64,000 bases of DNA from Salinigranum halophilum (GTDB lineage: Archaea; Halobacteriota; Halobacteria; Halobacteriales; Haloferacaceae). The DNA lies in assembly GCF_007004735.1 (NCBI RefSeq), contig NZ_SSNL01000005.1, positions 186,001 through 250,000 on the forward strand, in the 5' to 3' direction. The notes under the pieces were generated by a model, which made no database searches, was not told the DNA's origin, and saw only the letters and a list, made by a program, of their open reading frames with translations. Made by a program: the position numbers and the translations under genes. Shown piece after piece: positions 22,504-25,143 of this stretch (position 1 is its first letter; every line of letters starts with the position of its first letter).

Positions 22504-22633
22504 GCGCGTGCGTAGACGGCGGCTCCCCGTAAGTGCGGCCCCGGAGGCAGGCTGTGCCGGTTGACACGAGCGACAGACGTCTGTCTGACACGCGGGTAAC
22601 GTTCAAGTGCCCTCAGCGCGCACCGAAGAGTCG

Positions 22634-23197
22634 ATGAGCAAGATCACGTTCCGTGCCGACGACGACCTCGTCCGACGCCTCGAGGAGTTCGACTCCTCGA
22701 AGAGCGAGGTCATGCGCGAGGCGCTCCGTGCGTACCTCGACGGCACAGGGCGTGAGACGGAGACGACGGCGTCGGCGTCGGTGGGAGACAGCATCGACGA
22801 CGCGCTCACAGCGCGGGTCGACGCGCTGATCGACGAACGCCTCGACGAGCGTTTACGCGCGAGAGAGCCCGCGAGCGGCGCGCAAGACGTCAACGTCAAC
22901 ATCACCGTCGAGGGCGCAGCGGGGACGCGTGAGACGGCGGTGTCCGACGACGACCGCGAGGCGGACCGTCGTAAGACACCGGACGCATACACCGGGGACG
23001 ACGTGCAAACGGCGGTCGAGTCGTGTGACCAGTGTGGCGAAAACATCTCTCCGGACCACGTTTACTGCCCGAACTGCGGCGAATTAGCGACCCAGCCGAC
23101 GTGTGGCGAGTGCGGCGACGAGCTCCGGTCTGACTGGGCGTTCTGCCCCGGTTGCGGCCGACGAACACCCGCAGCGGACGTTCTCGACCAGCCGTAA
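22634..23197 (+). CDS. cdrL: CdrL, ribbon-helix-helix regulator with double zinc ribbon
   Basis: A 187-residue DNA-binding protein. Residues 1-38 (MSKITFRADDDLVRRLEEFD onward) form a ribbon-helix-helix domain. A charged linker with a probable coiled coil follows (about 55-80). Two zinc ribbons close the protein, with Cys131/134/145/148 and Cys157/160/171/174. In haloarchaea this protein sits upstream of cdrS-ftsZ2 and belongs to the cell-division regulatory circuit. The ATG at 22634 opens directly on the RHH strand; the in-frame codons before it are discarded. It is followed by a 226-base operator region. Confidence 0.88.
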   Translation: MSKITFRADDDLVRRLEEFDSSKSEVMREALRAYLDGTGRETETTASASVGDSIDDALTARVDALIDERLDERLRAREPASGAQDVNVNITVEGAAGTRETAVSDDDREADRRKTPDAYTGDDVQTAVESCDQCGENISPDHVYCPNCGELATQPTCGECGDELRSDWAFCPGCGRRTPAADVLDQP

Positions 23198-23246
23198 ACG
23201 CCGTATTCGACCGTCTGACGGCTTCGGAAGCCGCATCGGACATATT

Positions 23247-23406
23247 GTCTTACGGCCGCCGGTAGATTTATAATGTAGTGGTCAGTCCTTACGTTCGCGT
23301 AAGACGGCCGTCTTACAGCCGAGAGGGAGGGTGGCACGGTGTGCCGCCGTCCGTCGGTTTTACGGTGTAAGACGGTGACACGGACCTCACGTCCGGTCCG
23401 TCTTAC
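23247..23406. promoter_or_regulatory. Array of GTAAGACGG-type sites upstream of cdrS
   Basis: The motif GTAAGACGG or its complement CCGTCTTAC, whole or nearly whole, recurs: partial at 23247 (GTCTTACGG), a perfect 18-base palindrome at 23299-23316 made of both halves, a forward copy at 23367-23375 and an inverted copy at 23398-23406. The spacing, symmetry and position between box A and the cdrS ATG suggest sites for a ribbon-helix-helix dimer, most likely CdrL or CdrS itself. Confidence 0.7.
23267..23274 (+). promoter_or_regulatory. Box A of the cdrS-ftsZ2 operon
   Basis: TTTATAAT at this position is a canonical haloarchaeal TATA box. The predicted start of transcription is near 23296, at the edge of the 18-base palindrome, giving an unusually long leader of about 125 bases before cdrS. 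Confidence 0.7.
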
Positions 23407-23423
23407 CGGGGGAATGCAAAACC

Positions 23424-23603
23424 ATGGAGCGTGTGACACTACGGATTCCGAAGGAGCAGATCGAAAAGGTCGAGCGAATGGTCGAGACGGGAGAGTTCCC
23501 GAACCGGAGCGAAGCGATCCGGGCTGCCGTTCGCGAGATGATTAACGAACAAGGCGAGACCCGCGAGTCGGCGTCGGGTAAGCGCACCTGGGCGAGAGTG
23601 TAA
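23424..23603 (+). CDS. cdrS: CdrS, short ribbon-helix-helix cell-division regulator
   Basis: A 59-residue protein, [20 protein letters not shown] then a turn ([13 protein letters not shown]) and a second helix ([10 protein letters not shown]). This is a complete ribbon-helix-helix fold whose N-terminal strand contacts DNA as a dimer. CdrS is known in haloarchaea as a global regulator of cell division co-transcribed with ftsZ2. Here ftsZ2 starts two bases after its stop. It is preceded by the operator array and a long leader, consistent with autoregulation. Confidence 0.93.
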
Positions 23604-23605
23604 CG

Positions 23606-24793
23606 ATGCAGGACATCGTTCAGGAAGCGATGCAGCGCGACGAGGCCGAGCGCAAAGCGCAGGCCGAATCGAACGGCGACGACACGTTCGGTGACCCGCG
23701 AATCGTCATCGTCGGCTGTGGTGGTGCCGGGAACAACACCATCAACCGGCTGTACAACATCGGCGTCGACGGGGCCGAGACGGTCGCCATCAACACCGAC
23801 AAACAGCATCTGAAGATGATCGAAGCCGACACCAAGATCCTCGTGGGCAAGTCGCTCACGCAGGGGCTCGGTGCCGGCGGCGACCCCTCGATGGGCGAGC
23901 GCGCCACGGAGATGGCGCAGGGCACCGTCAAGGAAGTCCTCGGCAACGCGGACCTCGTGTTCGTGACGGCCGGGATGGGTGGCGGCACCGGGACCGGTGC
24001 GGCCCCCGTCGTCTCGAAGATCGCCAAAGAGCAGGGTGCGATCGTCGTCGGCATGGTGTCGACGCCGTTCAACGTCGAGCGCGCCCGCACGGTGAAAGCC
24101 GAGGAGGGACTGGAGAAACTCCGCAACGAGGCGGACTCCATCATCGTCCTCGACAACAACCGCTTGCTCGATTACGTCCCGAACCTGCCCATCGGCAAGG
24201 CGTTCTCGGTGATGGACCAGATCATCGCCGAGACCGTCAAGGGCATCTCCGAGACCATCACCCAGCCCTCGCTCATCAACCTGGACTACGCGGACATGTC
24301 CACCATCATGAACCAGGGCGGCGTCGCGGTGATGCTCGTCGGCGAGACACAGGACAAGAACAAGACCCAGGAAGTGGTGAACGACGCGATGAACCACCCG
24401 CTCTTGGACGTCGACTACCGCGGCGCGTCCGGTGGTCTCGTCCACATCACGGGCGGCCCCGACCTCACACTCAAAGAGGCCGAGGGCATCGCGAACAACA
24501 TCACCGAGCGACTCGAAGCGAGTGCGAACGTCATCTGGGGCGCGCGCATCCAGGACGAGTACAAGGGCAAGGTCCGCGTCATGGCCATCATGACCGGCGT
24601 CCAGTCCGCGCAGGTGCTCGGCCCGACGACACAGAAGCAGGCCGACCGCTCGCGACAGAGCATCGAGGCGCAGTCCGCGGGCCAGTCGAACGACCAGCAG
24701 TTCGACGCCCGCCAGAACGCCCAGGCCGGCTGGCAGTCCGACGGCGGCCGCGACGAACTCGAGAAGAACAACGGCCTCGACGTCATCCGCTGA
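23606..24793 (+). CDS. ftsZ2: Cell division GTPase FtsZ2
   Basis: A 395-residue tubulin homologue. GTP-binding loops are [14 protein letters not shown] (about 37-49) and the tubulin signature [10 protein letters not shown] (125-134). The catalytic T7 loop region includes LINLDYADM. The N-terminal extension [19 protein letters not shown] is typical of the haloarchaeal FtsZ2 group, which acts in ring constriction. The C-terminal tail (from about 350) is Gln/Ser-rich and probably binds division partners. The two-base gap from cdrS shows an operon. Confidence 0.95.
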
Positions 24794-25143
24794 GCGGGAC
24801 GCGAGATTCGTCGACGCCGGCTGTTTTCGCGGTCGTTTCGAAAGCTCTTATTAGAAACTTCCGCACAAACTATATACAATATAGAGTAAATAGCGTATGA
24901 CGCCGTTCGGGCGTATATAGAATATATAGAAACCCGGCTCGTGAGCGTTCTGCGAGCGATACTCAGAATTCCGTCGCGTTGGGCCGTCTCGATACTGTTT
25001 GCGTCGGCGGACGAAGCACCCCACACGCTGTCTCACACCGCGTCACCTCCCGGAGCCGGCGCGAACGGCGGCCGCCGAGGAGGTCACCCGACAGCGAGAC
25101 CAGACGAAGGCGGCCCCGAGCCCGAACCGAAATCCGAACGCCG
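24794..25143. other. Gene-free gap between convergent ftsZ2 and ncsA with several TATA-like boxes
   Basis: Both flanking genes end here, so no promoter is required, yet three AT-rich TATA-like clusters occur (around 24845-24853, 24868-24893 and 24911-24932) with a small hairpin at 24900-24914 (ACGCC/GGCGT). A GTG at 24941, 25 bases after one box, opens 77 codons, but the product uses rare codons and turns Gly/Pro/Arg-rich. A 7-codon leaderless frame starts at 24897. I see no convincing gene; a small RNA is possible. Confidence 0.5.

Follow-up and report, generated by a model that had tools for sequence, protein, structure and literature searches.

GTAAGAC boxes upstream of haloarchaeal cdrS-ftsZ2: a probable DNA operator combined with a predicted structured mRNA leader

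The closest described system is that of Halobacterium salinarum, in which CdrL binds upstream of cdrS-ftsZ2 (PMC7439475), the interval that holds the array described here; by ChIP-seq, this upstream region is the only reproducible CdrL site genome-wide (Darnell et al. 2020, PMC7439475). The main text of that study, as far as it is accessible, contains neither 'motif' nor 'palindrom', and it reports no box, array or leader RNA. For the partner regulator CdrS, the regulon in Haloferax volcanii comprises 18 listed ChIP-Seq sites and a symmetric motif; the accessible list includes ftsZ1, with the site at -50, but not the cdrS promoter, and cdrL is absent from it as well (PMC8406309). A third point of comparison is NikR, also a ribbon-helix-helix (RHH) regulator, with the operator GTATGA-N16-TCATAC (PMC7055735). 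At the level of RNA, structured leaders have been judged 'not typical in haloarchaea', and highly expressed Haloferax genes are usually leaderless (PMC4983044). ftsZ2 of the cdrS-ftsZ2 operon is reported as very highly expressed in Halobacterium (PMC7439475), and the operon as probably post-transcriptionally regulated (PMC8303175). In the open-access literature that we searched, with preprints, most subscription papers and supplementary files outside its scope, we found no prior description of the boxes or of the fold presented below.

In the window, by which we mean the whole 64-kb stretch of DNA analyzed, the array lies between cdrL (22634..23197, forward strand) and cdrS (23424..23603, forward strand), and cdrS is followed by ftsZ2 (23606..24793, forward strand), which encodes a tubulin-like division protein. 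CdrL carries RHH_1, CdrL_M and DZR, i.e. an RHH domain and a double zinc ribbon, while CdrS is a small RHH regulator; profile matches to RHH_1 (E=2.1e-5 for CdrL and E=1.6e-9 for CdrS) thus bear out the proposal that RHH regulators are encoded on both sides of the array. By sequence, the closest solved relative of CdrS is NikR 2bj1 (E=0.0022), and a domain search of CdrS found no metal-binding domain. The C-terminal double zinc ribbon of CdrL has a weak profile likeness to ribosomal or translation-linked RNA-binding zinc ribbons (best E 0.001). Directly past ftsZ2, at 24850-24935, the window is AT-rich with repeated TATATA-like runs.

The cdrL-cdrS interval (23198-23423) contains five exact copies of the 7-mer GTAAGAC, the core common to all five boxes. 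Box 1 (GTCTTAC, 23247..23253, reverse strand) lies before the start of the predicted transcript, 13 bp ahead of the TATA-like TTTATAAT (23267..23274, forward strand), which itself starts 32 bp before box 2. Box 2 (GTAAGAC, 23299..23305, forward strand) and box 3 (GTCTTAC, 23310..23316, reverse strand) together form the 18-bp perfect palindrome GTAAGACGGCCGTCTTAC at 23299-23316, as had been claimed. Box 4 (23367..23373, forward strand) is another exact GTAAGAC, and box 5 (GTCTTAC, 23400..23406, reverse strand) ends right before a ribosome-binding-like GGGGG run at 23408-23412. The preliminary description had counted four half-sites and one partial site upstream of box A; the repeats and the upstream site are there, but the count has to be revised to five full copies, since the site called partial is a complete GTCTTAC.

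The GTAAGACGG repeats of that description were recovered as four exact 9-mers at 23299-23307 (forward), 23308-23316 (reverse), 23367-23375 (forward) and 23398-23406 (reverse), the sole exact copies in the window. Genome-wide, 16 exact copies occur in 4.2 Mb, four of them in the cdrL-cdrS interval, and copies with one mismatch are not enriched in the window (17 versus 15.7 expected by chance). The exceptional property is the clustering of exact 9-mer copies. Three of the other exact GTAAGACGG copies have low contig coordinates (C3:2-10, C6:60-68 and C10:60-68 of G000) and perhaps belong to a repeat shared by contig ends. Because the bases that adjoin the 7-mer differ from box to box and from genome to genome, we reject the 9-mer as the repeat unit in favor of the 7-mer, single copies of which are found in both orientations. 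In 81 leaders of 200 nt, GTAAGAC occurs 364 times versus 1.7 expected from shuffles; with the clustering of exact copies and the genome-wide uniqueness of the palindrome, these counts led us to reject chance or an artefact of GC-rich DNA.

A scan of related genomes, as proposed in the preliminary description, found the array class-wide, and the lack of conservation in close relatives that would have spoken against it is clearly not seen. Three to six exact boxes are present within 400 bp in each of the leaders of a named set of 80 haloarchaeal cdrS loci, which represent 80 of 223 relatives from one search. The palindrome GTAAGAC-N3-6-GTCTTAC occurs in 188 of 194 Halobacteria genomes, at a single place in each, compared with 2/194 for the reversed pattern used as control; CdrS is present in all 194. 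The six genomes lacking the exact palindrome (G014, G018, G060, G124, G134 and G174) each keep three or four exact boxes, the palindrome being lost through a changed box in four of them and through a 2-bp spacer in the other two. Overall, the spacing between paired boxes ranges from 2 to 6 bp across genomes, a variation that the cooperative, dose-dependent control proposed in the preliminary description would have to accommodate. Where a palindrome place could be paired with a listed cdrS place, which was possible for 58 of the 75 palindrome places listed, it lies 99-135 nt upstream of cdrS (58/58).

Alignment of 81 leaders on box 2 places the TATA element at a fixed position of -32 to -27 and shows that CGTAAGACG at the start site is invariant (81/81), so that transcription is predicted to start no more than a few bases from box 2. 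Sixty of these leaders have an exact box 1, eight have one of GTATGAC type, and in 13 none was found; it occurs on either strand and, with three exceptions among the 68, lies either 51-53 bp or 62-65 bp before box 2. Two genomes stand apart in other respects. In the small divergent genome G021 (C81:15720-16620), cdrL is immediately preceded by a second RHH-like match, and boxes 4 and 5 seem absent from the cdrS leader. Haloferacaceae archaeon XH8 has two cdrS loci in one chromosome (L020 and L024), the second near a contig end with a disrupted cdrL zinc ribbon (L024) and with ftsZ2 in two pieces, which is either a duplication or an assembly artefact.

Altogether, five 7-bp boxes are arranged around the TATA element and the start site between two RHH genes, as in the operator of an RHH (MetJ/Arc/CopG) regulator, and an operator array is well supported by its class-wide conservation, by its uniqueness in the genome, by box 1, which precedes the TATA element and is not part of the predicted transcript, and by the published CdrL ChIP-seq. 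The array is most likely the operator of CdrL, because the published ChIP-seq places CdrL solely at this region (PMC7439475); we infer direct contact of CdrL with the boxes from data that are region-level. One palindrome place per genome, at cdrS wherever the place could be checked, is the pattern of a CdrL target, and cdrL is found directly upstream of cdrS in 78 of 80 loci. The array is not confined to genomes in which CdrL is encoded. Four genomes (G001, G007, G194 and G195) keep the array although a full CdrL was not found in them, one of the searches being a short-query search that had no positive control, and G194 may be an incomplete metagenome-assembled genome. In G001 and G007, boxes 1 and 4 each differ from GTAAGAC by one base, and the array of G195 (L088) is nearly intact. 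The RHH_1 matches examined in G001, G007 and G195, which cover a minority of loci only, proved to be CdrS or other RHH proteins, and none of them has a CdrL-like strand. The CdrL middle region PF24252 was dropped as a CdrL marker, being too weak (159/194) and missing genomes that do have CdrL. G001 and G007 (L125 and L126) belong to one genus; in both, the cdrS leader carries the box array and no cdrL is adjacent.

These four genomes fit an alternative in which CdrS, by itself or in a heterodimer with CdrL, reads the array and so regulates its own gene, instead of CdrL being the sole reader. The box itself can be viewed as half of a CdrS box (the GAC side) joined to half of something else (the GTA side). 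Moreover, the RHH base-contacting strand, which we take to be R3-T5-R7 in CdrS and K3-T5-R7 in CdrL, differs between the two proteins in its proposed contact residues only by R3 versus K3. The same alternative also draws on relatives outside Halobacteria, which are reported to lack CdrL (PMC7439475, accessible text): in 20 cdrS leaders chosen from a phylum search, we counted 41 GTCNGAC, six GTATGAC and one GTAAGAC. CdrS autoregulation thus looks ancestral, because relatives lacking CdrL have CdrS-type boxes at cdrS. By the same reasoning, the operator letters appear to have switched from CdrS type to GTAAGAC in the CdrL-bearing lineage. Against CdrS as the reader in Halobacteria, the ChIP-Seq peak at the cdrS region is that of CdrL (PMC7439475), the CdrS sites listed for H. 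volcanii include ftsZ1 and not the cdrS promoter (PMC8406309), and the palindrome is unique in each genome, whereas CdrS has many sites. We therefore regard reading by CdrS as unlikely, and continue with CdrL as the preferred reader of GTAAGAC.

A related box is the better candidate for CdrS. Upstream of ftsZ1, GTCNGAC boxes immediately precede the TATA element, usually paired at a distance of 11 bp (33 places in the 19 regions kept versus ~1.1 expected), and the pairs are exact in Haloferax genomes. The arrangement GTCNGAC-N4-GTCNGAC at ftsZ1 fits the place and symmetry of the published CdrS motif, with identity of the letters inferred by us (PMC8406309, accessible text). On the basis of this fit, GTCNGAC is most likely the box that CdrS reads, as pairs upstream of ftsZ1 and frequently of cdrL too. 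Of 78 loci, 29 have a CdrS-type pair with at most one mismatch ahead of cdrL, that of the window among them, compared with 4 of 1216 control windows; the pair is missing mainly in Natrialbaceae-type and Haladaptatus loci. In the window, the double box GACAGAC-GTCT-GTCTGAC (22572..22589), one mismatch away from GTCNGAC-N4-GTCNGAC, lies 44 bp upstream of the cdrL start codon. Accordingly, the suggestion that both flanking regulators act on the one array probably holds for CdrL, while CdrS more likely acts through the related GTCNGAC at ftsZ1 and cdrL.

Several further occurrences of this box were noted. A single CdrS-type 7-mer, GTCTGAC, lies at 23213..23219 of the window, at a position that is not conserved as such in the 81 leaders. 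In a number of Natrialbaceae-type leaders (L016, L018, L021-L023, L025-L028, L030, L031 and others), GTCTGAC has a fixed place in the third-hairpin region, 14 nt downstream of the start of box 4; here TCTGACAGGG is conserved and the flanking stem letters co-vary in some, so that a CdrS box may be built into these leaders. In three Haloferax genomes (L219, L222 and L223), an exact GTCNGAC pair lies between two conserved divergent genes and is likely a CdrS target. GTCNGAC pairs were abandoned as a route to the published CdrS gene list, with which only ftsZ1 matched by name.

Boxes 2 to 5 are inside the predicted cdrS-ftsZ2 mRNA leader (23297..23423, forward strand), the start of which is placed ~26 nt after the TATA center. 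Folding of the leader from the window gives -67.1 kcal/mol (z -5.07), and none of 200 shuffles is equally stable; over 81 leaders, the mean z is -4.23, with z at or below -2 in 73. In the predicted folds, box 2 pairs with box 5 in 81/81 leaders and box 3 is paired inside the leader in 78/81, its partner in the window being box 4. With two additional hairpin segments, between boxes 3 and 4 (23317..23366) and between boxes 4 and 5 (23374..23399), the leader is predicted to take the form of an RNA three-way junction. The alternative of two local hairpins, 2:3 and 4:5, was rejected for most leaders: its flanks are unpaired, and 2:5 with 3:4 is more stable in 72/72, by a mean of 6.7 kcal/mol. Exceptions are the leaders of G001 and G007, which fold as the two separate hairpins, and those of L127 and L130, which also depart from the common fold. 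The 3:4 helix is absent from the predicted fold in L010, L012 and L014, and has no extension in 18 of 72 leaders. An intrinsic terminator was likewise rejected, as the closing stem is not followed by a U-run.

Inverted boxes are automatically complementary, and the fold could thus be a by-product of a DNA operator in GC-rich DNA. In line with this, the 20 GTCNGAC leaders from outside the class show some folding (mean z -2.1, 11/20 at or below -2) without a common architecture, the three-way junction not being seen in any of them. However, when the segments between boxes are scored with the boxes excluded and against dinucleotide shuffles, they fold on their own: in 81 leaders, the 3-4 segment has a mean z of -2.20, compared with 0.04 for the untranscribed stretch before the start and -0.31 further upstream, and the 4-5 segment a mean z of -1.23; these differences hold at the level of genera (44 groups; Wilcoxon p 1e-8 for 3-4 and 6e-7 for 4-5). 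Moreover, the bases flanking box 3 are paired with those flanking box 4, and these pairs covary at k=1-5, where several types of base pair occur, whereas no such pairing or covariation is seen for the flanks of 4:5. The 3:4 pairing is register-specific (211/360 versus at most 155 when slid), and with one locus per genus (37 groups) it scores 114.5/185 versus 79.7 for permuted flanks, a value reached in 0/10000 permutations. The corresponding signal for 2:5 is weak at the genus level (449/10000 permutations reach it). A DNA operator with an incidental fold is therefore improbable in our estimation, and we keep to a leader in which the arrangement has been shaped for RNA folding, because letters outside the boxes covary.

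Conventional RNA searches were less informative. A search of 23150-23650 against Rfam gave no matches up to E=10. RNAalifold, run on a MAFFT alignment, detected hardly anything other than the invariant box pairs (covariation term -0.12, two pairs with double changes), a result that is uninformative because the inner stems misalign. Folding and covariation nonetheless exceed what sequence conservation accounts for, as in a conserved RNA, and by modeling boxes 2 to 5 form the stems of a conserved three-way junction in the leader. The start-codon region is predicted to be slightly more open with the native than with a shuffled leader (0.65 versus 0.56; 63/81). The array had originally been read as an operator; the operator stands, but a role in DNA alone does not explain that boxes 2 to 5 are also predicted stems of the leader RNA. 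The leader and cdrS together would give ~305 nt, longer than the ~250 nt reported for a monocistronic cdrS mRNA (PMC8406309).

The covarying flanks and extra hairpins would also suit a leader that functions as RNA only, with boxes 2 to 5 kept as stems, their common letters explained by an RNA-binding protein or by strand exchange, and CdrL acting at box 1 only. Departures from the consensus at box 4 agree with this, as GTAAAAC, GTGAGAC, GTAGGAC and GTAAAC all still pair with box 3. On the other hand, the letters of the boxes stay constant instead of changing in a compensatory way (box 2 in 81/81), box 1 has identical letters in 60/81 leaders despite lying outside the predicted transcript, and GTATGAC at box 4 in three leaders (L013, L014 and L076) preserves the DNA pattern and breaks the central RNA pair. 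Because their letters are invariant and recur before the TATA element, ahead of the predicted transcript, the boxes are best explained as sequence-specific DNA sites, and we give little credence to a purely RNA-level role.

We consider it probable that the cdrS-ftsZ2 leader is a DNA operator and a structured mRNA leader in one element. In our model, the five GTAAGAC boxes would serve as DNA docking sites for RHH dimers, most likely of CdrL, with box 1 ahead of the TATA element at the position that CdrS occupies on ftsZ1, boxes 2 and 3 on the start, and boxes 4 and 5 in the leader. Binding at the boxes would tune initiation at a very strong promoter. As to the sign of regulation, a position like that of box 1 is usual for activation in archaea and a position at the start site is usual for repression (PMC8406309, accessible text). 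Once transcribed, the boxes would pair 2:5 and 3:4 and, together with the two extra hairpins, would close a three-way junction whose end lies immediately ahead of the ribosome-binding region; this junction would probably affect mRNA stability or translation. The structured leader is a candidate cause of the probable post-transcriptional regulation reported for the operon.

Both halves of this model can be compared with known systems. The box variant GTATGAC/GTCATAC contains the NikR half-site, but spacers here are 2-6 bp and not 16 bp as in the NikR operator, and there are five boxes. Similarly to riboswitch and ribosomal-protein leaders, the conserved folded 5' leader precedes a ribosome-binding region in a highly expressed operon; unlike riboswitch-type leaders, it has neither an Rfam match nor a known ligand. 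It is tempting to speculate that CdrL reads the element twice, with its RHH domain on the DNA boxes and its zinc ribbon on the nascent leader, that GTCNGAC gave way to GTAAGAC with the arrival of CdrL at the locus, and that CdrS boxes at cdrL close the circuit, although as a whole this is a long shot. If true, a single loop would link promoter firing to mRNA output and FtsZ2 dose, and the switch to GTAAGAC would separate the operator of CdrL from that of CdrS.

The element bears on the means by which archaea control the amount of the division tubulin FtsZ2. It provides an exact, class-wide candidate operator for cdrS-ftsZ2 together with a distinct box proposed for the partner regulator, and thereby suggests a testable two-gene circuit, with CdrL boxes at cdrS-ftsZ2 and CdrS boxes at ftsZ1 and cdrL. 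It also places a structured leader RNA, here predicted from folding and covariation, in a group for which such leaders have been thought untypical. Finally, it may offer a natural case in which lineages that have a second, related regulator differ in their operator letters from lineages that lack it.
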